Shown here: piece after piece, positions 16,386-36,582 of the stretch
Position numbering within the stretch: position 1 is the stretch's first letter
Layout of the letters: every line of letters begins with the position of its first letter
Program-made: the position numbers and the translations under genes
The notes under the pieces: model-generated
Told to the model about the DNA's origin: nothing
What the model saw: the letters and a program-made list of their open reading frames with translations, nothing else
Databases searched by the model: none
Assembly (NCBI GenBank): GCA_011773985.1
Contig: WVWN01000053.1
Span: 1-64,000, forward strand
Origin: Candidatus Zixiibacteriota bacterium
GTDB taxonomy: Bacteria; RBG-13-66-14; B26-G2; WVWN01
Reading direction: 5' to 3'
DNA length: 64,000 nt

Positions 16386-16483
16386 AAAGTCCTTCGTTAT
16401 TGGCCTATTCCGGGTCCGAGCGGCGCCAAATCGAGACCAGGCGCCGGAACGAGGGGAAGTTTTCGCCGCGACCTCCCGCTAAG

Positions 16484-17011
16484 ATGTTAGGCGCACGAGG
16501 AACGGTCCAAGTCTATACCGGCGACGGCAAGGGTAAGACCACCGCCGCCCTTGGCCTCGCGTTGCGCGCCTGGGGCCACGGCGCGCGCGTACTCGTCATC
16601 CAGTTTATGAAGGGGCGGATAAACTACGGCGAACTCGAGGCCGCGCGAAGGCTCGAAGGGTTCGACGTCGAGCAGTACGGCCGGGAGAGCTTCGTCGACC
16701 GCGACGAGCCGGCGGCGGAAGACGTCGCCCTCGCCGCGGAGGCGCTGGCCCGAGCGCGGCAAGTTGCCGGCGCGAACGAATACGACCTCGTCATACTTGA
16801 CGAGGTGAACGTCGCCGCCGACTACGGTTTAATAAAAACGGAAGACATCCTGGACCTTATTGCGAAAAAACCGCCGGAGATGGAGCTCGTCCTGACAGGT
16901 CGGAGGCCCCCTGCCGGATTCGTCGAGGCGGCGGATCTGGTGAGCGAGGTGCAAGAGACAAAACACCATTACCGCATCGGCATCCCCGCCAGGAAAGGGA
17001 TAGAGTATTGA
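16484..17011 (+). CDS. cobO: Cob(I)yrinic acid a,c-diamide adenosyltransferase (CobA/CobO/BtuR family)
   Basis: GTVQVYTGDGKGKTTAALGLALRAWGHGARVLVIQFMKG, LDEVNVAADYGL. Confidence 0.93.
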   Translation: MLGARGTVQVYTGDGKGKTTAALGLALRAWGHGARVLVIQFMKGRINYGELEAARRLEGFDVEQYGRESFVDRDEPAAEDVALAAEALARARQVAGANEYDLVILDEVNVAADYGLIKTEDILDLIAKKPPEMELVLTGRRPPAGFVEAADLVSEVQETKHHYRIGIPARKGIEY

Positions 17012-17976
17012 ACCGGGCGGGGGCCGTAACGACGACCGACTTCCTCGAGCGCTTCCTGGCGGGGGACCGGCTGGCGCTCGCGCGTGCGATATCCGCGGTC
17101 GAGGACGAGGCCGACGGCTACCGCGATTTCCTGCGCCAGATTTACGGCCGCGCGGGAAAAGCGTACCTCATAGGCATCACCGGGCCGCCGGGGGCCGGTA
17201 AGTCAACGCTGGTGTCGCACCTGGCGGAGCGCTACGCCGCGGCGGGCCAAAACGTGGGCGTCGTCGCGGTGGACCCGACGAGCCCCTTCACCGGCGGGGC
17301 GCTGCTCGGCGACCGCATCCGGATGAACGAGCTGGCCGGCAATGAGCGTATCTTTATCCGGAGCATGGCGACGCGCGGCAGCCCGGGTGGCCTGGCCAAG
17401 GCCACGGGCGAGGTCGCGTTGACGATGGACGCCTTCGGCTTCGATACGGTCCTCATCGAGACCGTAGGCGTAGGCCAGAGCGAGCTCGACGTCGCCAACT
17501 CCGCGGATACGACCGTGGTGGTCGTCGTCCCGGAATCGGGGGACGCGGTGCAGGCGATGAAGGCCGGCCTGATGGAGATAGCCGACGTGCTGGTGGTGAA
17601 CAAGGCCGACCGCGAAGGCGCCGAGCCGATGGCGCGCGAGCTCCGCGTCACGCTCGAGCTAAAGCCGGAAGACGGGTGGCGGCCGCCGATTATCATGTCG
17701 GTCGCGACGGAAGGCCGGGGCATCGACGATATCACGGACGCGGTGACGGCGCACCGCTCGCACCTCGAGGAGTCGGGCGGATTAACGTCGCGGCGCCGTT
17801 CGCGGGTACAACGCCAGCTCGAAGAGCTGCTCGCCTACGAGTTCAGGCGCGTATGCGCGGCCGCGCGGGACTACGACAACCTCCTGGAATTTTTAACGGC
17901 CGAGGTACAGGAGGGGCGCCTTACGCCCTACGAAGCTTCGGCGAGGCTCTTTAAAGAAGTCTCTCGCGAAATGTAA
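17008..17976 (+). CDS. meaB: MeaB/ArgK-family GTPase, acyl-CoA mutase chaperone
   Basis: GITGPPGAGKSTLVSHLAERY, VAVDPTSPFTGGALLGDRIRM, LIETVGVGQSE. Start overlaps the cobO stop. Confidence 0.95.
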   Translation: MNRAGAVTTTDFLERFLAGDRLALARAISAVEDEADGYRDFLRQIYGRAGKAYLIGITGPPGAGKSTLVSHLAERYAAAGQNVGVVAVDPTSPFTGGALLGDRIRMNELAGNERIFIRSMATRGSPGGLAKATGEVALTMDAFGFDTVLIETVGVGQSELDVANSADTTVVVVVPESGDAVQAMKAGLMEIADVLVVNKADREGAEPMARELRVTLELKPEDGWRPPIIMSVATEGRGIDDITDAVTAHRSHLEESGGLTSRRRSRVQRQLEELLAYEFRRVCAAARDYDNLLEFLTAEVQEGRLTPYEASARLFKEVSREM

Positions 17977-17994
17977 CGTCGAGGAGGAGTGAAG

Positions 17995-19146
17995 ATGGCC
18001 TGGAACTGGGACCCGGCGCAAGAAGATGTACGCGAAAAGGCTCGCGCCTTCGCCGAGAAATACATTGACGCTGTGAGCCAAGAGCTCGACCGGCGGCCGC
18101 CCGAGTTCCCGGAAGATATTTTCAAAGCGATGGGGAAAGCTGGCTACTTAGGCTACCCGTCGGACCCGGCGTACGGCGGCCAGGGTAAAAACAAGCTGCT
18201 CTACGCCACGCTCATCGAGGAGATATCGTACGCCGACGCGGCGTTGGGTATCGTCATGGCGGTGCAAGTGCTGGCCTCGTATCCCATCGGGAAGTTCGGC
18301 ACCGACGAGCAGAAGAAGAAGTATCTGCCGAAGATGAACGTCGGCGAGCTCCACGGCGCCTTCGCGCTCACCGAGCCCGGCGCCGGCTCCGACGCCGCGG
18401 CGCAACAGGCCACCGCGACCCTCGACGGCGACCACTACGTCCTCAACGGCGAGAAGATCTTCATCTCCTCGGGTAACGTCGCGGACGTCGTCGTCGTAAT
18501 CTGCCGGGCCAACAACGCGGAGGAACCCGATAAGTTCAAAGTCTCGGCGTTAATATTCGACAGTCCCCAAGACCCGGGTTATTCAGCCGAAATTTTAAAA
18601 TACAAGATGGGCATACGCGCCTCGACGACGGCGCGGTTGTACTTCAAAGACGTCAAGATACCGAGGGAGAACCTCCTGGGAGAATTCGGCAAGGGGTTCC
18701 GCATCGCGCTGAACACGCTCGACGGCGCGCGCGTCGGCGTCGCGGCGCAGTCCGTGGGCATCTGCCAGCGGGCCTTCGACCTCGCCTCGGCCTACGCCAA
18801 AGAGCGCGAGCAGTTCGGCGCGCCCATCGCCAAGCTGCAAGCCATCCAGTGGATGATCGCGGATATGTCGGTCCGCCTCGAGGCGGCGCGGCTGCTGACG
18901 TACAAGGCCGCGCTCAAGGAGGCCGCGGGCGAGCCGGTGGGGCTCGAGGCCGCGCAGGCCAAGCTCTTCGCCTCCGAGGCCGCGAACTTCTGCGTGAATA
19001 AGTGCATGCAAATTCACGCCGGCTACGGCTTCGTCGGCGACTTCTCGCGCGTCGAGCAGCTCTACCGCGACCAGCGCATCACCGAGATATACGAAGGAAC
19101 CTCCGAGGTCCAGCGGCTGGTGATCGCGAACCATTTGCTAAGGTAA
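17995..19146 (+). CDS. Acyl-CoA dehydrogenase
   Basis: [45 protein letters not shown]. Confidence 0.95.
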
Positions 19147-19181
19147 AAATAACTAAGGCCCGGAAGAGGGGTCAGGTAGAC

Positions 19182-20849
19182 ATGTTCGATAAAAAGGAAC
19201 TCGAAAAAGTAACCAAGGCCAAAGCGGCCTGGGACAAGAAGGCCGCGGCGTGCGAGGAACGGAACGCCCTGTTCGAGACCGTGAGCGGCCTGCCGGTCGC
19301 GCCGCTCTACACCCCCGCCGACGTCGACGGCCTCGATTACGAAGCCGACGTCGGCGTCCCGGGCGAGTACCCGTTCACGCGCGGCGTCCAGACCAATATG
19401 TACCGCGGCCGCCTTTGGACGATGCGCCAGTTCGTCGGGTTCGGCTCCGCGGAGGACACCAACGCCCGCAACAAGTACCTCTTGAGTCACGGCCAGACGG
19501 GCCTTTCCATCGCCTTCGACCTGCCGACGATTATGGGCCGCGACTCGGACCACCCGTACTCGCACGGCGAGGTGGGCAAGTGCGGCGTCGCCGTCTCGTC
19601 GCTCGCCGACATGGAAGTCCTCTTCGACGGCATCCCTCTCGACCGCGTCTCGACGTCTATGACGATTAACGCCCCCGCGGCCCTCCTCTTGGCCTACTAC
19701 GTCGCCGTGGGCGAGAAGCAGGGCGTCGACTCTAAGCTCCTGCGCGGGACCATCCAGAACGATATCCTCAAGGAGTATATCGCGCAGAAGAGTTGGATCT
19801 ACCCCCCCGAGCCGTCGATGCGCATCATCACCGACATTATGGCCTATTGCGCCGAAGAGGTTCCCAAGTGGAACACCATCTCCATATCTGGATACCACAT
19901 CCGCGAGGCCGGCTCGACCGCGGCGCAGGAACTCGCCTTCACGCTCGCGGACGGCTTCGCGTACGTCGAGGCCGGCATCGCCGCCGGGATGGACGTGGAC
20001 ACCTTCGCGCCTCGCCTCTCCCATTTCTTCAACGCCCACCTCGACTTCTTCGAGGAGATCGCGAAGTACCGCGCGGCGCGGCGCATCTGGGCCAAGCGGA
20101 TGAGGAACAAGTATAAGGCCAAGAACCCGCGCTCGTGGCTCATGCGTTTTCATACGCAGACCGCGGGATGCAGCCTCACGGCGCAGCAGCCCGAGAACAA
20201 CATCGTCCGGACCGCGCTCGAGGCGCTGGCCGGCGTCCTGGGCGGGACGCAGTCGTTGCACACAAACTCCATGGATGAAACGCACGCGCTGCCCTCCCAG
20301 AAAGCGGTCCTCATCGCGCTCCGCACGCAACAGATCATCGCCTACGAGTCCGGCGTCGCGAATACCATCGACCCCCTCGCCGGCTCGTACTACGTCGAAC
20401 ACCTGACGAACAAACTCGAGCAGGAGGCGGAAGATTACTTCGACAAGATCGAGGCGCTGGGCGGCGTCCTGAAAGCTATCGAGAAGGGATTCTTCCAGAA
20501 GGAAATAGCCGATGCCGCGTACGCGTACCAGAAGAAGATCGAAGAAGGCAACCGCATACAGGTCGGCGTGAACGAGTTCAAACTCGAAGGTGAGAAGATC
20601 GAGATCGACCTCCTTAAGGTCGACCCGGCGGTGGAAAAGCACCAGCGGAAGCGCTTGGCGAAGGTCCGCGCGGAGCGTTCGGAGGCCGAGTGGAAGAAAG
20701 CGCTAGACGGCCTGCGGCAGGCCGCGCGCGACGGCACCAACCTCATGCCCCACTTTCTGGCCTGCGGCCGGACATACGCCACGCTGGGCGAGACGCTGGA
20801 CGTTTTGCGCGAGGAGTTCGGCGAGTACAAGGAGACGCCGGTATTTTAG
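19182..20849 (+). CDS. B12-dependent acyl-CoA mutase large subunit, isobutyryl-CoA mutase-like
   Basis: MCM-family TIM-barrel ([52 protein letters not shown]). Carries Phe84 and Gln202 at the positions of MCM Tyr89/Arg207. Confidence 0.9.
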
Positions 20850-20885
20850 GCCGGCTCGAGCCGTTGCGGACGGCGGAGGTAGTAT

Positions 20886-21290
20886 ATGCCCGAGAAACGA
20901 ATCCGCGTATTGGTCGCGAAGCCGGGGCTCGACGGCCACGACCGCGGCGCCAAGGTCGTCGCGCGGGCGCTGCGCGACGCCGGCATGGAGGTCATCTACA
21001 CCGGCCTGCACCAGACGCCGGAGGCGATCGTGGAGGCGGCGCTGCAGGAGGACGTCGACGTCGTCGGCCTGTCCATTCTGTCGGGCGCCCACATGACGAT
21101 GTTCCCGCGCGTCCTCGAGCTTCTGCGACAGAAAGGCGCCGAGCACGTCGTCGTCACCGGCGGCGGCATCCTCCCCGACAACGATATCGCCGAATTGCAA
21201 AAGATCGGCGTGGGCCGGCTCTTCACCCCCGGCGCGGCGACGGACGAGATCGTCAAGTATATCCGCGAGGCCGCGGCCTCGGATAATTAA
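20886..21290 (+). CDS. Cobalamin-binding small subunit of acyl-CoA mutase
   Basis: [37 protein letters not shown], with DxHxxG and the SGAHMT and GGGI motifs. Confidence 0.95.
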
Positions 21291-21296
21291 CGCGCT

Positions 21297-22856
21297 TTGA
21301 CGAATATGGCCAACGAAGAACTCTACGAGAGGCTGGCCAAGGTGCGCGCCCGGGCGCTCGAGGGCGGCGGCCCGGAACGCGTCAAGAAACAGCACGACGC
21401 CGGCAAGCTCACCGCGCGCGAGCGCCTCGACATCCTCCTCGACGAGGGGACCTTCCGCGAGCTCGACGCGGCCGTCGTCCACCGCTGCCACGACTTCGGC
21501 ATGGAGGAGCGGCTCGTACCGGGCGACGCCGTCGTCACCGGCTACGGCAACGTCAACGGCCGCCTCACTTTCGTCTTCGCCCAGGACTTCACCTCCTTCG
21601 GCGGCACGCTCTCCAAAGCGCACGGCGAGAAAATCTGCAAGGTTTGCGACCACGCCATGCGCGTCGGCGCGCCCATCGTAGGGCTCAACGACTCGGGCGG
21701 CGCGCGCATCCAGGAGGGCGTCGACTCGCTGGCCGGCTACGCCGACATCTTCCTGCGCAACACGCTCGCCTCGGGCGTCGTGCCGCAGATCGCGGCCATC
21801 ATGGGCCCGTGCGCCGGCGGCGCCGTATACTCCCCCGCGGTCATGGACTTCACCTTCATGGTGGAGGGCACGTCGTACATGTTCCTCACCGGGCCGGACG
21901 TCATCAAGACCGTGATGAACGAGGACGTGACGTTCGAGGAGCTGGGCGGGCCCCACGTCCACGCCACCAAGTCCGGCTGCTGCCACGTCGTCGCGAAAAA
22001 CGAAGTGGAGTGCCTGCAAGAGATTCGCCGCCTCCTCTCCTTCCTGCCGCAGAATAACCTGGAGGACGTGCCGTACGTCGAGACCGGCGACGACCCGGCT
22101 CGAGCCGACCCGGAATTAGACACGTTGCTCCCCGACTCGGCGACCAAGCCGTACGACATGAAAGACGTCATCCGACGCGTCGTCGACGACGGCGACTTCT
22201 TCGAGGTCCACAAAGACTTCGCGCCCAACATGATATGCGGCTTCGCGCGCATGGCGGGCCGGACCGTCGGCATCAACGCCCATCAACCGCTGGTGCTCGC
22301 CGGCTGCCTGGATATCGACTCCGCTTGCAAGTCGGCGCGCTTCATCCGCTTTTGCGACGCTTTCAACATCCCGCTCCTCACCTTCTCGGACGTGCCGGGC
22401 TTCCTGCCGGGGACGGCGCAGGAGTACGGCGGCGTCATCAAGCACGGCGCGATGCTCTTATACGCGTACGGCGAGGCCACGGTCCCCAAGGTCCACGTCA
22501 TCGTCCGCAAGTCGTACGGCGGCGCGTACGCCGTTACGTCAACCAAGCACATGCGCGGCGACACGGTCTACGCGTGGCCCACCGCGGAAATCGCGGTAAT
22601 GGGCCCCGAGGGCGCGGTAAACATATTGCACCGGCGCGAGCTGGCGGAGGCGAAGGACCCGGCTAAGCTGCGCGAGAAGCTTGTCGCCGAGTTCCGCGAA
22701 AAATTCGCGAACCCCTACATCGCCGCGGAGCTCGGCTACGTCGACGAGGTGATAATGCCGCGGGAGACGCGGCCTCGCGTCGTCCAGGCGCTCGAGATGC
22801 TCCGGAACAAACGCGACAAGAACCCGCCCAAGAAGCACGGGAATATACCGTTGTAA
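21297..22856 (+). CDS. pccB: Acyl-CoA (propionyl-CoA) carboxylase carboxyltransferase subunit / MmdA-like
   Basis: [52 protein letters not shown]-terminal [11 protein letters not shown] at 21297 or ATG at 21306. Confidence 0.93.
22806..22855 (+). repeat. Direct repeat copy 1 (3' end of pccB)
   Basis: 28-bp perfect core CCAAGAAGCACGGGAATATACCGTTGTA (22828-22855), about 45/50 identity over the longer segment to 23208-23257. Confidence 0.9.
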
Positions 22857-22926
22857 AAAGGTAGTAGCCGGGCTCGGCGAGTTCGGGGCGTCTATACTAT
22901 TTCATTTCTTACCGTGGAGGCTTTAT

Positions 22927-23142
22927 ATGGTTAACGAGAAAAATAACGTAATTAACGATGAGGCCGTCGAAACCGCGGATTTCGAAACGGTAACCGTTGC
23001 CTTAATTAGGCAAATAAGCAACCGTGTTAACGTCATCAAAGGTTGGGTAGTATTTATCGGCATCTTGTTCCTAATATCCCTCGTTTTGGGTATATTAGGA
23101 ACGTGGATTACATTATCTGCCATAAAAGGAGTCGCGCCTTAA
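22927..23142 (+). CDS. Small single-pass membrane protein (71 aa) between pccB and the biotin carboxylase gene
   Basis: Good SD (GTGGAGG, 8-nt spacing), hydrophobic segment WVVFIGILFLISLVLGILGTWITLSAI; more AT-rich than its neighbours. Confidence 0.65.
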   Translation: MVNEKNNVINDEAVETADFETVTVALIRQISNRVNVIKGWVVFIGILFLISLVLGILGTWITLSAIKGVAP

Positions 23143-23207
23143 CGACAAACCCCTCGTCCGTTGCCACCGCGAATCGCGGCAAAAAGGCCCGCGGCGGGGC
23201 CTTAATC

Positions 23208-23257
23208 AACAAACGCTACCATACCCCGACCAAGAAGCACGGGAATATACCGTTGTA
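23208..23257 (+). repeat. Direct repeat copy 2 (orphan carboxyltransferase C-terminal tail)
   Basis: Encodes [18 protein letters not shown] in the same relative frame as pcc[19 protein letters not shown]; 28-bp core identical. Confidence 0.9.
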
Positions 23258-23272
23258 GTTTAGGGGCGTAAT

Positions 23273-24784
23273 TTGTTTAAAAAAATCCTAATAGCCAACC
23301 GCGGGGAAATAGCCGTCCGCGTGATGCGAACGTGCCGCGAGATGGGCGTCGCGAGCGTGGGCGTCTACTCCGACGCGGACCGCCCGGCGCCCCACGTCCG
23401 CTACGCCGACGAAGTCTACAACATCGGCCCGCCGCCGGCGAGCGAATCTTATTTAAATATAAGTAAAATTATCGACGTCGCCCGGCGCTCCGGCGCCGAG
23501 GCCATCCACCCGGGCTACGGCTTCCTGGCCGAGAACGCCGACTTCGCCGAAGCGTGCCGCGAGGCCGATTTCCCATTTGTCGGGCCGTCGCCGGAGACGC
23601 TGCGCGCCGCGGGCGACAAGCAGGGCGCCCGGGCGACTATGGCCGCGGCGGGCATCCCGGTGATACCCGGCTCCGACCCGGCGCTACGCGGGGACGAGGA
23701 CATCGCGAAAGCGGCGGCTGAGATCGGCTGGCCGGTGATGATAAAGGCCGCGGCCGGGGGCGGCGGCAAAGGTATGCGCATCTGCGCGCGCGCCGAAGAT
23801 TTCGGCGAACTCCTGAAGCAAGCGCGCGGCGAAGCCGAAAGCGCGTTCGGCGACGACACGGTTTACGTCGAGAAGTGCATAGTGAAGCCGCGCCACGTCG
23901 AGTTCCAGATCCTCGCGGACGCGCAGGGCAACGTCGTACATCTCTTCGAGCGCGAGTGTTCCATCCAGCGGCGTCACCAGAAGCTCATCGAGGAATCGCC
24001 GTCGCCCGTGCTCGACGGCGAGTTGCGCGCGCGGATGGCGGAGGCCGCGGTCACCGCGGCCCGCGCCTCGAATTATACCAACGCCGGGACGATAGAATTT
24101 TTGTTGGACGCGGACCGCAACTTCTACTTCCTGGAGGTAAACGCCCGCCTCCAGGTCGAGCACCCGGTGACCGAGCTCGTAACCGGCGTCGACCTCGTAA
24201 AGGAACAATTGCGCATAGCGGCGGGGGAGCCGTTAAGATTTGCCCAAAAGGATATAAAGCACCGCGGCGCCGCGATCGAGTGCCGCATCTCCGCGGAGGA
24301 CCCCGCTAACAACTTCTACCCGGCGACGGGGACGATTTCCCGGCTCCGCCTGCCGTCCGGCCCGGGCGTCCGCTTCGACGGCGGCATCGCCCAGGGCTAC
24401 GAGGTCCCCATTTACTACGACCCGCTCATCGCCAAGCTCGTCGCCTGGGCGGAGTGCCGGCCTCTCGCGATCGAGCGGATGCACCGCGCGCTGAACGAAT
24501 TCGTGTTGGACGGCGTCGCGACCACGATACCTTTCCACCGCTGGGTGATGGCATCGGACGCCTTCCGGGAAGGCGACTTCGACACCTCGTTCGTAGAGGA
24601 GTATTTTCGACCGGAAGCCGCGCGCGTCGAAGATTTGGAAAAGGCGGCCGCGGTCTTGTGCACCCTCCTCACCCATTTCCGCGAAGGGGCTGCGCCGGCC
24701 GCCGGCGCCCCGAGCCGCGACGGCGCCTTGGCCGTCGACCCCTGGCGCCTCGCGGCCCGCCGCGAGGGGGTGGGAAGCGAATGA
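23273..24784 (+). CDS. accC: Biotin carboxylase subunit of acyl-CoA carboxylase
   Basis: KKILIANRGEIAVRVMRTCREMG, HPGYGFLAENADFAEAC, AAAGGGGKGMRI, FLEVNARLQVEHPVTE. TTG start. Confidence 0.95.
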   Translation: MFKKILIANRGEIAVRVMRTCREMGVASVGVYSDADRPAPHVRYADEVYNIGPPPASESYLNISKIIDVARRSGAEAIHPGYGFLAENADFAEACREADFPFVGPSPETLRAAGDKQGARATMAAAGIPVIPGSDPALRGDEDIAKAAAEIGWPVMIKAAAGGGGKGMRICARAEDFGELLKQARGEAESAFGDDTVYVEKCIVKPRHVEFQILADAQGNVVHLFERECSIQRRHQKLIEESPSPVLDGELRARMAEAAVTAARASNYTNAGTIEFLLDADRNFYFLEVNARLQVEHPVTELVTGVDLVKEQLRIAAGEPLRFAQKDIKHRGAAIECRISAEDPANNFYPATGTISRLRLPSGPGVRFDGGIAQGYEVPIYYDPLIAKLVAWAECRPLAIERMHRALNEFVLDGVATTIPFHRWVMASDAFREGDFDTSFVEEYFRPEAARVEDLEKAAAVLCTLLTHFREGAAPAAGAPSRDGALAVDPWRLAARREGVGSE

Positions 24785-25290
24785 GGTACTGGACGACGAT
24801 CGGCGACCGCTCCTACGAGCTGACGGTGGAGGGCGAGGGGGCCTCGCTCGCGGTCGCGGTGGACGGGACGCCGCTCGAGCTGGACTACTACGAGGTCGCG
24901 CGCGGGGCGACGTACTCCCTGATACTCGACGGCCGCTCGTACGAGTTGTGGGTGCGCTCGGGCGACGGCGGCTACGTCGTCTTCGTCGCCGGCCATACGC
25001 TCGCGGTGTCGGTGGAGGACGAGCGGCAGCGGCGCATCCGCGAGCTGAAGGGCGCCGCGGGCGTCGGGGAGCAGGGCGCGGTCGAGTTGAGGGCGCCTAT
25101 GCCGGCGGTCGTCCTGGACGTAATGGTGGCGCCGGGCGACGGCGTTACGGAAGGCCAGGGGCTTTGCGTCATCGAGGCCATGAAGATGGAGAACCTGATG
25201 CGCGCGCCCCGCGACGGCGTCGTGAAAGAAGTTAAAATCGAAAAGGGTAAGGGCGTCGGCCTAAACGACGTCATGGTAATCATAGAATGA
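24781..25290 (+). CDS. Biotin carboxyl carrier protein
   Basis: C-terminal biotinyl domain with [22 protein letters not shown] overlaps the accC stop (ATGA). Confidence 0.9.
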
Positions 25291-26900
25291 CGGCAAAAGA
25301 CGAAACCGCTCCCGCGCGTGAGGTCGCGACCACCTCCGGGGTGAAGGTGAAAACGGTTTATAAACCGGAGGACGCGCCGGTCGACTACGCGCGCGAGCTG
25401 GGCGAGCCAGGCGCACCGCCTTTCACGCGCGGCATATACGCCGACATGTACCGCGGCCGCCTTTGGACGATGCGCCAGTACGCCGGTTACGCTACCGCCG
25501 CGGAGACCAACAAACGGTACCGCTACCTTCTCTCGCAAGGCCAGACGGGCCTCTCCGTCGCCTTCGACCTGCCGACGCAGTGCGGGTACGACTCGGACGC
25601 CGCGCTCGCGCGCGGCGAGGTGGGTCGGACCGGCGTCGCCATATCCACCCTCGACGACCTGGCGGCCCTCTTCGACGGCATTCCGCTGGCCGACGTCTCC
25701 ACGTCAATGACCATAAACGCTACGGCGTCGACACTATTGGCGATGTACGTCGTCCTCGCAAAGCGGCGAGGCGCGGAACCATCGAAGTTGCGCGGGACCG
25801 TCCAAAACGACATCCTCAAGGAATTCTTCGCGCGCGGTAACTACATCTACCCGCCGGCGCCTTCGCTCCGCCTCGCGACGGACCTCATCCGCTACTGCGC
25901 GGCGAACATGCCGTCCTGGAACAGCATCTCCATTTCGGGATACCACATCCGCGAGGCCGGCGCGACCGCGGCGCAGGAAGTAGCGTTCACCTTCGCGGAC
26001 GCCGTCGCGTACGTCGAGGCCGCGCTAGCCGCGGGCCTGGACGTGGACGACTTCGCGCCCCGCCTCAGCTTCTTCTTCGGCGCGCACAACGATTTGCTCG
26101 AGGAGGTGGCGAAGTTCCGCGCGGCGCGACGGGTCTGGTGTCGCCTTATGGCGGACCGCTTCGGCGCCAAGAACCCGCGCTCGATGATGCTGCGCTTCCA
26201 CACGCAGACGGCCGGCTGCACGCTCACGGCTCAGCAGCCCGCGAACAACGTCGTGCGCGTCGCGCTGCAGGCGCTGGCCGCGGTACTCGGCGGAACGCAA
26301 TCGCTACACACCAACTCGCGCGACGAGGCGCTGGCGCTTCCCTCCGAGCAGTCCGCGCTCATCGCCCTCCGCACGCAACAGATAATCGCGCACGAGAGCG
26401 GCGTCGCCGTCACAGCCGACCCCCTCGCCGGCTCGTACTACGTCGAGGCGCTGACCGGCGAGCTCGAGGCGCGCGTCGAAGAATACCTCAAAGAAATCGA
26501 CGCCTTAGGCGGTGCGCTGAAGGCGGTGGAGAGCGGCTACTTCGCGGACGAGATCGCCGCGAGCGCGTACCGGTACCAAAAAGACGTCGAGGAGAAAAAG
26601 CGCGTCGTCGTCGGCGTGAACGAATACGTAACCGAGGGCGCGCCGCCCTTCGAGACGCTGCGCGTGGACCCGGCGCTCGAGCGCTCCCGCGCGGAAGAGC
26701 TCGCCGCCTACCGCGAAAGGCGCGACAGCGTCAAACTCGAGGAGGCGCTCGCCGCTTTGCGCGAGGCCGCCGCGGCCGACGGCGCGCCGCTGATGGAATC
26801 CACGCTCGCGTGCGTCGAGGCGGGGGCGACGGTGGGCGAGATATCCGACGCGCTGCGCGAGGTGTGGGGCGAGTACGACAAAACGAAAGGACCGGCGTGA
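25287..26900 (+). CDS. B12-dependent methylmalonyl-CoA mutase large subunit
   Basis: MCM-family pattern with Tyr65 and Arg183 at the MCM Tyr89/Arg207 positions ([20 protein letters not shown]), [24 protein letters not shown]. Confidence 0.92.
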
Positions 26901-31988: not shown

Positions 31989-32441
31989 TTATGCCAACTG
32001 CTTCTCTAGCTCCCTAAACGCGACGTCCCATTGGACCTCGAACCACCGGCGCGCCTCCTCCCATTCCGGCGCGCCCCGCCACCCGGAGTGGACCAGGTGG
32101 ACCTCCGTATACGACTCCCCCTCTTCCTCGCCCGGGACGAACGCGACGGTAACGTGCGTCAGCGGGTCGCACTCGTTCATGAAATCGGAGTACTGCTTCG
32201 GTCCCTTCCACTCGAAGGCCAACAGCTTCCCCTCCTCGAGCGCCGTGACCCGGCAGCCAATGGTGCTGTCGAACTCGGGCTCCTCCGGATTCCAGAAGAG
32301 CTCGTACTTGCCGCCCACGAGCGGCTCGACGTCCGCCTTGACCGTGAGCCACTTCTCCAGCAAATCGCTCGAGGTGAACATCTCGAACGCCCGCGCGGCG
32401 TCGCACGGCAATTTGACCGTTCGGTAAATTATCTTATCCAT
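31989..32441 (-). CDS. SRPBCC/AHSA1-domain protein
   Basis: VKLPCDAARAFEMFTSSDLLEKWLTVKADVEPLVGGKYELFW...VHSGWRGAPEWEEARRWFE. Confidence 0.85.
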   Translation of the reverse strand: MDKIIYRTVKLPCDAARAFEMFTSSDLLEKWLTVKADVEPLVGGKYELFWNPEEPEFDSTIGCRVTALEEGKLLAFEWKGPKQYSDFMNECDPLTHVTVAFVPGEEEGESYTEVHLVHSGWRGAPEWEEARRWFEVQWDVAFRELEKQLA

Positions 32442-32476: not shown

Positions 32477-32504
32477 GTAAGGGCGCAAGGCCTTGCGCCC
32501 CTAC
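32477..32504. repeat. REP-like palindrome
   Basis: GTAAGGGCGCAAGGCCTTGCGCCCCTAC; contains a perfect 20-bp palindrome GGGCGCAAGGCCTTGCGCCC (32481-32500). Confidence 0.65.
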
Positions 32505-33391
32505 TCCAGGCCGTAAACCTGCCGCGGCGCAAGGTACTCCGGGAATTTATCGATCAAGGCCAGGCGCGCGAGGTAGCACAAATGACACTCGTCGACGTAC
32601 TCCTCTCGAAGCTCGAGGTCGTACGCGCGGACGAGCTCGGCCGGGCCGCCGCGCAACAGCGGCCCGCAAATCGGGTGGGCGTCCGCGTCGTATTCCTTAG
32701 CCAATCGCGACAGCGGCGTCTCCCACATATTGCCCATGCTTAGCCCCTGGCATAGGTGGACGTGGCCGAAGGGGTCGACGTGTACGCGGCCGGGGTTCCG
32801 TAGCTCCTCGTGGGGGCATTCGGTGAACTCCATCCACGGCCTGGTCGGCAAACCCTCCACCAGCTTATCGACGGCGCGACCCCGCAACACCGCGCCCCCT
32901 CTTATCACCGGCTCGCCCTTCTCGACGCCGAACTCGACCGTCGGCTCGTCGATGCAGATCGAACCGGTGGGAACGTCGAGCTCGGCCGCGGCGCGGGAGG
33001 CCACCTTGGCCGGCGTCTCCTCCTCCTCGCCGTGGTGGTAGGCGTCGTCGCTGAGGGAGAGGTCGTCGGCGCCGACCTCTTTAAGCGGCTCGAGCCAGAG
33101 CGAGGCGTCCTCTCGAGCCGTGGCCCAATAGCAGTTGGTCACGACGCCAGCCTTGAAGCCGCGCGCCTGCGCCAATTTGATTCCCTCGACCATCAAGGGG
33201 TAATAGAGAAACGGCTCGCCGCCCTCGTAGTATATCCACTCTACCGACCCGAATTCGGCCGCTTCGTCGAGGACCGCCCGGATCTGCTCGAGCGTAAACG
33301 TCCCTTCCGACTTCGGGCCGCAGTAGAGGAAGCAGTGGTCGCACTCGAAGTTGCACGCGTACGTCAAAAGAAAATGTATGCCCTTCAGCAT
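32501..33391 (-). CDS. Radical SAM protein
   Basis: FLLTYACNFECDHCFLYCGP (CxxxCxxC) and Cys residues near the C-terminus (CHLCYLARL). Confidence 0.88.
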   Translation of the reverse strand: MLKGIHFLLTYACNFECDHCFLYCGPKSEGTFTLEQIRAVLDEAAEFGSVEWIYYEGGEPFLYYPLMVEGIKLAQARGFKAGVVTNCYWATAREDASLWLEPLKEVGADDLSLSDDAYHHGEEEETPAKVASRAAAELDVPTGSICIDEPTVEFGVEKGEPVIRGGAVLRGRAVDKLVEGLPTRPWMEFTECPHEELRNPGRVHVDPFGHVHLCQGLSMGNMWETPLSRLAKEYDADAHPICGPLLRGGPAELVRAYDLELREEYVDECHLCYLARLALIDKFPEYLAPRQVYGLE

Positions 33392-33418: not shown

Positions 33419-34651
33419 TTAGCGCCGCCGACGCGGCGAATTGCGGCCCACGCCCGCAACGCGTTCGCCCAAAAGGTTTAATTTAAATTTCCTTATCGTC
33501 GCCGGCGACAATATTTCGCCCCGCGGCCCCGTAAAATATAACGCGTCGAAGGGACATTGTACGATACAGGCGCCGCATTGCACGCACCGCCGGGAACCGA
33601 CGAGCGTCGCGGTGTGTTTAGCTCGAGCCACTCGATAACAGTTCCGAGGGCACACCTGCTCGCAGAAACCGGCGCCCCTACACCTTTCCTTATCGAGAAA
33701 TACGGTGAGGAATATATCCGCGTGTAAGCCGCTTTTATAGACAGGCGTACTCCCCTTCAAGTCGATACTCAGCAGGAGAACGATGATAAATGAGACGAGG
33801 CCCCAGCGGAAAATGGACCACCGGCCTAAGCCGTCGGCAAAGAGGTAAAAAATAATAAGGCCTAAGATAAAGACGCTCCATAGAATAATTAAGACGCGGC
33901 TGAAATCAAATACAACGGTATATTTACTGAACGCCGTTCCGCCTTTCCCGGGCCGGAGCCAACTCGAATATAGGGGGAATGATAAAAATACCAATGACGA
34001 CAGGGCCCATATAAGAACCGTCAGGGGCAGGACTATCCGCAGCCAAAAGAGGGCCGTCGCTAAAGCCGCGATAACCGAGAAAGGGAAGGCCCACATACAG
34101 GCCATTTCGACGCGCTGCCCGAGCGCGAAATCCACCTGACGCGTCGCGGCCGTCTTCTCGAACCCGCTCGTGATAAAAACGGGGATATCCCTCGCATATA
34201 CCGGCCCCCAGATCACTCTCCACCCGGCTTTTTTCCGTATAACGCCAGCCTCGACGCCGGTCGCGGCGAGCTGAGGAAGGACCACGTCGCGGTGGGTTAC
34301 GAGGCTTTCCACGCCGCTGGTTTTCAGGACCGAGATGACGTCGTGGTCCGTAAAATGCCCTCCCGCGGCGCCACACCACACGTTGTACCCTCTACTGTTG
34401 GCCACGAGGAGATAACAATCGATGTCGCGCAAAGCCCGGCTAACGCGGACGACGGTCAAATGATAATTACCGGTGAGGAAAACGGGCGAACTCTTATCGG
34501 GCGCCCCTATTTTTATTACGCCCGTTCTACAAGGAAAAGGAACGACCCGCAACAACGTCTCGAAGACGTTAACCGCCGCATACGCGAGCAGGTTTATACG
34601 CCGCTCCTTCCGCTTTTCCTCGCAATTAATTCGACAAAATTCTCCATCCAA
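33419..34651 (-). CDS. HgcA/HgcB-like fusion: corrinoid-binding domain with cap-helix Cys, TM segments and C-terminal ferredoxin domain
   Basis: HgcA-like SSPVFLTGNYHLTVVRVSRALRDIDCYLLVANSRGYNVWCGAAGGHFTDHD...GVESLVTHRDVVLPQLAATGVEAGVIRKKAGWRVIWGPVYARDIPVF, then TM segments and CRGAGFCEQVCP...RRCVQCGACIVQCPFDALYF. Start uncertain. Confidence 0.8.
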   Translation of the reverse strand: MDGEFCRINCEEKRKERRINLLAYAAVNVFETLLRVVPFPCRTGVIKIGAPDKSSPVFLTGNYHLTVVRVSRALRDIDCYLLVANSRGYNVWCGAAGGHFTDHDVISVLKTSGVESLVTHRDVVLPQLAATGVEAGVIRKKAGWRVIWGPVYARDIPVFITSGFEKTAATRQVDFALGQRVEMACMWAFPFSVIAALATALFWLRIVLPLTVLIWALSSLVFLSFPLYSSWLRPGKGGTAFSKYTVVFDFSRVLIILWSVFILGLIIFYLFADGLGRWSIFRWGLVSFIIVLLLSIDLKGSTPVYKSGLHADIFLTVFLDKERCRGAGFCEQVCPRNCYRVARAKHTATLVGSRRCVQCGACIVQCPFDALYFTGPRGEILSPATIRKFKLNLLGERVAGVGRNSPRRRR

Positions 34652-35316
34652 CTCGACCTCACCCGCTCAACGATGAAACCCGCGTCCCGCAACTTGCCTG
34701 GGAGGTCCTCTACCGACCTCGTGGTCGTCTGCGTAATAACATATGTTATTACGACCAGCGGGAATCTCAGCAAGCCGTTAAGGACGCGCTTTAAAATATT
34801 TCTCGGCCTCGCTTCGTCCGCGACGAGCAACAGGCCCCCCGGCCTTAATATCCTTACCACCTCTCGCAAAGTGTAGCTCAACTCGTCCGCGCTTAACTCG
34901 GAAAGGCAGAGGCCGCTTGTAACAACGTCGTAGCTCGCGCTTCTTTCCGCCTCGAGCTCCGCGACGCCCATCTCAGCCAACTCAACGTATTCCGTCAGCC
35001 CTTCTTTCTGAAACCGCTCCCGGCCAACCTCTAACATCTGGGGGTTGACGTCGATTCCTTTCACGTGCGCCCCTCGGCGCGCGGCCATAAGGGTCAAGGC
35101 GCCGGTCCCGCAGCCGAGGTCGAGGACCAACTGCCCTCTCTTTATATAAGCGGCCAAACGTTCGTAAGCCCGGTCCAGCTTTCCGCAGGTGAGGATCCGA
35201 ATGCCACGGTCGTACCGGCGCGGCGCGGACTCGAGGACCTTCATCAAAATATATGTGCTCATACGATTCCCCGCGCCTATGTCGGCCGACCCGGAAAGCC
35301 GGTCTTTATACCCCAA
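34594..35316 (-). CDS. Class I SAM-dependent methyltransferase adjacent to the HgcAB-like gene
   Basis: VLDLGCGTGALTLMAARRGAHVKGIDVNPQML. The 3' end overlaps the annotated start of the HgcAB-like ORF. Confidence 0.9.
   Translation of the reverse strand: MGYKDRLSGSADIGAGNRMSTYILMKVLESAPRRYDRGIRILTCGKLDRAYERLAAYIKRGQLVLDLGCGTGALTLMAARRGAHVKGIDVNPQMLEVGRERFQKEGLTEYVELAEMGVAELEAERSASYDVVTSGLCLSELSADELSYTLREVVRILRPGGLLLVADEARPRNILKRVLNGLLRFPLVVITYVITQTTTRSVEDLPGKLRDAGFIVERVRSSWMENFVELIARKSGRSGV
34732..34753. repeat. 22-bp perfect palindrome inside the methyltransferase gene
   Basis: CGTAATAACAT/ATGTTATTACG. Confidence 0.9.
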
Positions 35317-35529
35317 CCGCAGTAATCGCCGTCGTACCGAGGTCGGCGTCGGCCCGCCCGAAACTTCCGGCCGATATAATCCGCCGTTTTTTCCACGGCG
35401 GCCCGTCGCGAAAGACTTTCCGCTGCAACACCGTCACGGCGTCCTCGTCACTTTCTTTGAAGGTCCGAACCTCGAACATTCTCCACCACGTAAACGGCGT
35501 TCACCTTCACGCGCTAGAATAATTCGGCC

Positions 35530-36582
35530 TCAGTAATCGACTTTGAAACGCAACAACGCGCCGACGTGGCCGCCCTGGGCCAGCGCGCCGCCCGCTTCCG
35601 GGACGAAGCTCACGTGGGCGCCGGTCGCCTCGGCCAAGCTAGCCAATTTCTCGACGACCTCGGGCGCGCCGGCCGCCACTTCGTAAAAACCTTTGCCGAC
35701 GAGCAACGTATCGACGGCGCCCATCTGCAGCGCGCGCTCCGCGGCCGCGGCGCCCGCGACCGCCAGGCCGCCCCGCCTTAGCTCGCCGGCGAACCGCTCG
35801 AGTACCTTGGCTCCCTCTTCCCGCTCCGCCTCCTCGAGCACGGGCCTTATCTTTGCGAGCAGCTCGTCGTCGCCCGCGTCCAAGTCCCAGCGGACCGTAC
35901 CTATTACCTTGTCCCGCCACGCCGCCGGCAGCTCCTCCTCCACCGCGGCCACCATCCGGTCGCGGCCGGCGAGGAGGACGCGGCTCACGTCGCCCTCCGC
36001 GAAAACGTGCTCCGCCCGCCTCGCCACCTCGCCAGCGAAATGTTTTATTTCTTTATCGCGGCGCCGCTGGTACCGCATCTGCGACCAGCCGCCCACCTTG
36101 GACAAGTGGTGGACCTTTTCGCGCAGCGAGGTCTCCTCCTCCGCGACACGGCCGGCCGCGATATAAATTTTCGCGGCCGCCGCGTCCACGGTAATCACGC
36201 CCACCGGTTGGTACTCGTCGAGTTGCAACGCCAGCGGCGCGATAACCGCCTCGTCGTCCACCGCGAGCAGCGGCGCCGGCGGCATAACCAGCTCGACGCC
36301 CCGAACGAAGTCGGCTCCCAGGTCGGCGAAGAAGGCCAGCCCCGGCCCGGCGTATCCCTCGGCCTTCTTCCCATCAACGTAATCGGATAAAAACGACAAC
36401 GAGCCTTCGAAATAATCCCGCTCCCCGGCGTCCAGGAAAGGCGCCAGCCGCGCCGCCTCCTTGGCGACGAAGGCCGCGGCAGCGTCCCACCCTTCCGTAA
36501 GCGATAAGTACGCCGACAGGACCGTCCGGTCTGTCTCGGACAGTCGCGCAAGCTCGTGGAGCAGTTCTTCGGATACCTTCAT
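35530..36582 (-). CDS. Bacterial eRF1/Vms1-like (baeRF-type) protein
   Basis: VGGWSQMRYQRRRDKEIKHFAGEVARRAE plus domain-3-like C-terminus AGGALAQGGHVGALLRFKVDY. Confidence 0.75.
   Translation of the reverse strand: MKVSEELLHELARLSETDRTVLSAYLSLTEGWDAAAAFVAKEAARLAPFLDAGERDYFEGSLSFLSDYVDGKKAEGYAGPGLAFFADLGADFVRGVELVMPPAPLLAVDDEAVIAPLALQLDEYQPVGVITVDAAAAKIYIAAGRVAEEETSLREKVHHLSKVGGWSQMRYQRRRDKEIKHFAGEVARRAEHVFAEGDVSRVLLAGRDRMVAAVEEELPAAWRDKVIGTVRWDLDAGDDELLAKIRPVLEEAEREEGAKVLERFAGELRRGGLAVAGAAAAERALQMGAVDTLLVGKGFYEVAAGAPEVVEKLASLAEATGAHVSFVPEAGGALAQGGHVGALLRFKVDY

Follow-up and report, generated by a model that had tools for sequence, protein, structure and literature searches.

The window, a stretch of 64,000 nucleotides from the beginning of a contig of a Candidatus Zixiibacteriota bacterium, contains a gene pair that clearly belongs to two named protein families, HgcAB_like (NF043039) and CpaM (NF043040), and was acquired horizontally. 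The pair constitutes a self-contained two-gene module, in which a membrane-embedded corrinoid protein fused to a ferredoxin is accompanied by a class I SAM methyltransferase. CpaM is likely the SAM:cob(I)alamin methyltransferase of HgcA-type partners, and we lean towards the view that both proteins work as one two-component, membrane-bound corrinoid methyl-transfer machine. Potentially new are the extent of the obligate linkage over more than a dozen phyla, the repeated occurrence of CpaM-HgcA fusions, also in the genome of the window itself, and the split in cysteines between the fused proteins and canonical HgcB.

The HgcAB-like fusion protein and its CpaM partner

The HgcAB-like ORF encodes 410 residues on the minus strand, with cpaM upstream. 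The features discussed are:

33419 to 34651, minus strand: HgcAB-like fusion protein (NF043039), with a corrinoid domain (residues ~38-160), membrane helices (~177-301) and a ferredoxin domain (316-373); start uncertain
33533 to 33706, minus strand: ferredoxin domain, with C324-x5-C330-x3-C334 (Ala327 at the position of the usual second Cys), an extra Cys338, and C356, C359, C362 and C366
34373 to 34375, minus strand: codon of Cys93 in the NVWC cap helix; this Cys is predicted to ligate cobalt at the lower axial position
34594 to 35316, minus strand: CpaM (NF043040), a class I SAM methyltransferase associated with corrinoid proteins; the ATG at 35262 is likely its true start
35391 to 35498, minus strand: GNAT-like gene remnant of about 109 bp, 78% identical to an intact gene at the same site in the related genome G005

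A corrinoid domain, membrane helices and a dicluster ferredoxin are united in a single chain, as the first-pass annotation of this DNA had read it. Pfam places CdhD (PF03599) at residues 38-158 (E 9.8e-16) and 4Fe-4S ferredoxin matches at residues 316-372, while the NCBIfam model NF043039 is matched with 443.3 bits (curated cut-off 285 bits) by residues 27-372, corresponding to profile positions 2-350 of 350. The AlphaFold model, a single chain based on 50 sequences (pLDDT 83, pTM 0.84), has long helices at 177-202, 204-223, 252-271 and 277-301 between the corrinoid and ferredoxin domains, and in Foldseek it matches the HgcAB model 9a0b as well as CFeSP, over 126 residues and at 1.8 A. Similarity to the CdhD/HgcA corrinoid fold, named beforehand as the point on which the annotation could fail, was thus found with PF03599, NF043039 and Foldseek alike, and the suspicion that the family already bears a database name proved right for both genes. 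The NVWC cap motif (residues 90-93, Cys codon 34375-34373) and the segments THRDVVLPQL and GWRVIWGPVYA are also present as described; N90, W92 and C93 are invariant across 50 aligned HgcAB-like sequences.

The upstream ORF matches NF043040 with 288.8 bits (curated cut-off 180 bits; model type hypoth_equivalog). UbiE and arsenite methyltransferase models are among its general matches, and its single-chain AlphaFold model, a class I methyltransferase fold with a long helix at 174-196, is matched by small-molecule methyltransferase structures. Homology to the family sets in only at residue 19 and the model has low confidence for residues 1-19; the ATG at 35262 is therefore the probable start of cpaM. 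The sole invariant Cys of the CpaM family sits in the SAM-binding motif and no conserved set of metalloid-binding cysteines is seen in the CpaM alignment, which speaks against direct metalloid methylation by CpaM. Among the papers available to us, none was found to pair CpaM with HgcA.

The first-pass annotation had let the methyltransferase gene overlap the 5' end of the HgcAB-like gene. The upstream position of the former is correct, but the 58-bp overlap comes from a mechanical TTG start at 34651. In relatives, the usual start of the HgcAB-like gene is an ATG in a four-base overlap with the cpaM stop; the corresponding position in the window reads ATA (34597-34595; overlap ATAA, 34597-34594). 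Either the conserved start has changed from ATG to ATA or the TTG is in use, so that the true start is uncertain.

With respect to canonical HgcA (NF040863, cut-off 275 bits) and HgcB (NF040864, cut-off 99 bits), the window protein stays below both cut-offs with 151.1 and 45.3 bits, respectively. It possesses the N(V/I)WC cap-helix Cys of canonical HgcA and has a Gly at the fourth position after this Cys. The Lys usually quoted in the motif is indeed missing, as had been noted, but its use as a mark of true methylators is not supported and we rejected it as a diagnostic: it is also absent from 2 of 22 canonical HgcA sequences (L158 and L160), which lie above the canonical cut-off and read NVWCAAGAG. 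GVGC, the motif of Cys73, occurs in 21/21 canonical HgcB sequences examined, whereas the window protein has neither the Cys73-type nor the C-terminal cysteines and contains no Cys after the second cluster motif; most members of the family likewise lack both features. In a model methylator, the HgcB mutation Cys73Ala is reported to abolish methylation and loss of both C-terminal cysteines to remove 95% of it (PMC7305189). The fused-type strains Methanococcoides methylutens and Pyrococcus furiosus made no methylmercury in the cultures described in PMC5893877. Because both HgcB cysteine features are absent, mercury is unlikely to be the acceptor of the window protein, in agreement with the first-pass annotation.

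The ferredoxin domain deviates in its first cluster motif as well. Its second Cys is replaced in 58/63 HgcAB-like members, mostly by Ala, Thr or Val, and the extra Cys338 is found in 57/63, a pattern which suggests a 7Fe-type or open-site cluster I. We did not find this further difference from HgcB noted in those parts of the literature that were available to us. Three CpaM-partnered fused HgcAB proteins (L123, L143 and L177) differ from the other members in having GVCSCPTC behind the second cluster motif, with Cys-rich tails in two of them (L123 and L177); this small group thus retains the cysteine features of canonical HgcB in a different form.

Linkage, co-inheritance and insertion of the module

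Scanning 84,980 species genomes for HgcAB-like proteins yielded 65 loci, spread over more than a dozen phyla of bacteria and archaea. Most of them are bacterial, contrary to the earlier picture of fused HgcAB-like proteins as mainly archaeal. In each of the 55 loci with upstream DNA, cpaM is located directly upstream; of the remaining loci, eight begin at a contig end and two have matches confined to short stretches of ferredoxin. The linkage holds in the opposite direction: in a CpaM-side search of genomes not found via HgcAB-like, an HgcA-type partner adjoins or is fused to CpaM whenever the contig context is intact, the exceptions being L145 (cut by a contig end) and L171 (a degenerate locus). 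In the latter (G549:C80), a ferredoxin in a different frame follows directly on the first half of CpaM, which looks like a deletion of HgcA or a misassembly. CpaM itself is sparse, with 10/297 Desulfobacterota, 6/301 Chloroflexota and 1/247 genomes of the Archaeoglobus phylum, as well as 6/247 genomes of the phylum of an Acidobacteria-titled record.

Both partners have been inherited together. Pairwise tree distances of CpaM and HgcA correlate with a Mantel r of 0.95 (n = 74; shuffled maximum 0.31), and for the core set only with r = 0.77 (n = 59; shuffled maximum 0.26). The methyltransferase had been put forward as a candidate partner, with co-occurrence as the test, and the 55/55 linkage and the agreement of tree distances bear this out. 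Just two of 50 host genomes also possess a canonical HgcA above the cut-off, and hence the module does not act as an accessory to mercury methylation. Conserved neighbours other than cpaM, considered as a clue to the acceptor, are absent from the 65 related loci except in one archaeal group; neither a transporter or metal-response gene nor a methyl-THF methyltransferase is conserved beside the pair at these loci.

In the window genome, the pair is a recent horizontal insertion beside a broken acetyltransferase gene. In G005 and G006, two genomes of the same genus, the site is empty: the baeRF-like gene on one side adjoins the radical SAM and SRPBCC genes on the other, and the pair is missing. 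Among 14 genomes of the phylum, only the window genome encodes an HgcAB-like protein above the cut-off. The GC content amounts to 54-57% at the pair versus 60-68% around it, and third-position GC to 0.64-0.71 in the pair versus 0.83-0.87 in the adjoining genes. The insertion point is marked by the GNAT-like remnant, whose short intact counterpart in G005 is read as a GNAT acetyltransferase.

The radical SAM (32501-33391) and SRPBCC (31989-32441) genes had been listed with the system, which is not upheld: the empty site in sister genomes identifies them as native neighbours, and none of the 65 related loci has a homologue of either. At the other flank, 35530-36582 encodes an eRF1/baeRF-like protein related to bacterial ribosome hibernation factor families.

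Elsewhere in the window, a CobA-type adenosyltransferase, MeaB and the C- and N-terminal subunits of methylmalonyl-CoA mutase (16400-26900) indicate that the genome uses B12. Since CobS is not detected in the four genomes of the window genus despite this B12-using block, the corrinoid may be imported. As a corrinoid marker, CobS is uninformative on function and was discarded; it was detected in only 16/50 genomes examined. In the segment 57080-64000, genes for HdrC-like and HdrB-like proteins precede those for additional iron-sulfur proteins, and the set may encode an electron-bifurcating complex.

CpaM-HgcA fusions and a possible origin of canonical HgcA

The window genome (G000) contains a second system on contig C19 (3638-5478; L002, L184), consisting of a 527-residue CpaM-HgcA chain followed by a separate HgcB-like ferredoxin. 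The CpaM part reaches 217 bits, over its cut-off, and the HgcA-type domain 213 bits, below 275; the chain is below both the HgcA and the HgcAB_like NCBIfam cut-offs. Its HgcB has retained GVGC and the C-terminal Cys. The same CpaM-HgcA chain is found in three sister species (G004, G005 and G006; L010-L012, L185, L186) and is thus not an assembly error. The separate HgcB can be read in G000, G005 and G006; in G004, the CpaM-HgcA frame (596 aa) lies next to masked bases and the DNA at the chain end is masked. We regard this C19-type CpaM-HgcA with its HgcB as a candidate mercury methylator with a built-in methyltransferase.

Another CpaM-HgcA chain occurs in two Chloroflexota genomes (L167, L169), one of them with a readable separate ferredoxin. 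In a Desulfobacterota genome (L146, G121:C110), CpaM, HgcA and HgcB share one open frame, a single example on a contig that ends inside cpaM; its order comprises only three genomes, none of them informative on this triple fusion, and no relative confirms it. On the tree, switching between the fused and separate states of CpaM and HgcA takes three changes, each of which could be a gain or a loss.

The phylogeny against true HgcA and HgcAB-like fusions, proposed in the first-pass annotation, separates canonical HgcA from fused HgcAB (99% SH-aLRT; 100/95 in a second tree) and groups the window protein with the latter, as anticipated. The CpaM-HgcA fusion of the window genus sits between canonical HgcA and the rest of the tree. 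A single distant outgroup places the root among CpaM-partnered lineages and makes the genus fusion the sister of canonical HgcA (94/92), in which case canonical HgcA would have lost CpaM. The alternative topology, in which all CpaM-partnered proteins form a single clade, is not rejected (p-AU 0.38). We therefore offer only tentatively, and with more doubt than conviction, a wider scenario: CpaM would be the first known class I (Rossmann-fold) SAM methyltransferase for protein-bound corrinoid cobalt, CpaM-dependent proteins would be the ancestral stock of mercury-methylating HgcA, which lost CpaM, and the C19 CpaM-HgcA with HgcB would represent an intermediate that has survived, namely a mercury methylator incorporating its SAM methyltransferase.

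Proposed charging of the corrinoid and comparison with known systems

The methyl source of HgcA-type corrinoids has been debated; methyl-THF was taken to be the donor before SAM was reported by a study of 2024. We know of no class I SAM methyltransferase that is proven to methylate cobalt. Nevertheless, recurrent fusion and co-inheritance (r = 0.95) point to CpaM as the likely SAM:cob(I)alamin methyltransferase of its partners; with an invariant cap Cys and a SAM methyltransferase always present, the most economical interpretation has CpaM loading the cobalt. We infer the following order of events. The ferredoxin domain would deliver low-potential electrons to reduce the corrinoid of the HgcA domain to Co(I), and CpaM would transfer the methyl group from SAM to Co(I). 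The thiolate of Cys93 would ligate the cobalt from below, which would favour passing on the methyl group, as a carbanion or a radical, to a soft electrophile located at the membrane face. In the case of the window protein, our best guess for the acceptor would be another thiol-bound soft metal or metalloid, not Hg(II), whereas the C19 CpaM-HgcA with HgcB would combine the same charging step with retained mercury-handling cysteines. Purified canonical HgcAB has been reported to take the methyl group from SAM via a Cys-ligated methylcobalamin (PMC11588087). This also weighs against our main reading, as canonical HgcAB reportedly does so without CpaM and the role of CpaM might be a different one. 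The undetected CobS in the genus counts against it too, whereas the B12-using block of the window is in its favour.

Such a different role could be that of a reactivation or maturation factor, comparable to SAM for methionine synthase. CpaM would then only rescue inactive Co(II) or modify the protein or cofactor, and the donor would be another C1 carrier (methyl-THF or methyl-H4MPT). That CFeSP, the nearest solved relative of the corrinoid domain, uses methyl-THF, and that HgcA-type proteins can work without CpaM given the canonical HgcA loci where none adjoins, is in line with this possibility. We nonetheless judge it unlikely: no methyl-THF methyltransferase accompanies the pair as a conserved neighbour, the one-to-one linkage together with repeated fusion suggests that CpaM is a catalytic partner in stoichiometric amounts, and in the only direct tests, methyl-THF did not serve canonical HgcAB as donor while SAM did (PMC11588087). 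CpaM and the HgcAB-like protein might alternatively act sequentially on one small acceptor, CpaM methylating it directly from SAM and the HgcAB-like protein adding or removing another methyl group via methylcorrinoid, to give a volatile or exportable, multiply methylated product. The UbiE, arsenite methyltransferase and small-molecule methyltransferase matches of CpaM would fit such a route, yet its direct fusion to the corrinoid domain in separate lineages, its lack of conserved metalloid-binding cysteines and the lack of a transporter or metal-response gene conserved alongside render it decidedly improbable.

That the window pair is an ordinary mercury methylation system is hardly credible. 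The cap-helix Cys and the overall HgcAB fold are retained and some canonical HgcA sequences dispense with the Lys after NVWC, but the scores are below the cut-offs (151 versus 275 bits for HgcA; 45 versus 99 for HgcB). Moreover, the missing equivalents of Cys73 and the C-terminal Cys are those whose loss is reported to abolish activity or cut it by 95% (PMC7305189), and the fused types of M. methylutens and P. furiosus were negative for methylmercury in the reported assays (PMC5893877).

Under the preferred reading, in which CpaM charges the corrinoid, the constant SAM methyltransferase partner of a sister family, fused to the corrinoid domain in separate lineages, provides independent genomic support for SAM as methyl source. 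CpaM offers a soluble handle on the charging step without the need for mercury. The cysteine differences amount to a simple sequence rule by which likely mercury methylators can be separated from relatives that surveys may include in the same count.

Among known systems, one that was compared is the CFeSP gamma subunit of the Wood-Ljungdahl pathway. The corrinoid domains superpose (126 residues, 1.8 A), while CFeSP is soluble, lacks the cap Cys and uses methyl-THF with a methyltransferase of another fold. Canonical HgcA and HgcB (NF040863, NF040864) share with the window protein the corrinoid domain with its cap-helix Cys, the membrane domain and a ferredoxin partner; in contrast, the window protein is fused, CpaM-partnered, outside the canonical clade and below both cut-offs, and its ferredoxin lacks Cys73, the C-terminal Cys and the second Cys of the first cluster motif. 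The C19 system has CpaM, the HgcA-type corrinoid domain and NVWC in common with the window pair, but joins CpaM and HgcA in a single chain and keeps a separate HgcB with GVGC and a C-terminal Cys. The window protein resembles the NF043039 members, i.e., the fused HgcAB of Pyrococcus, Methanococcoides, Kosmotoga and others, with an identical domain order, a full-length match far over the cut-off, CpaM upstream and NVWC with Gly where HgcA has Lys. The window member differs from this family in nothing essential; it is horizontally inserted and has ~65% identity at best to relatives in other phyla. Its partner shares with the NF043040 CpaM family the class I fold and the adjacency to an HgcA-type gene and likewise differs in nothing essential.
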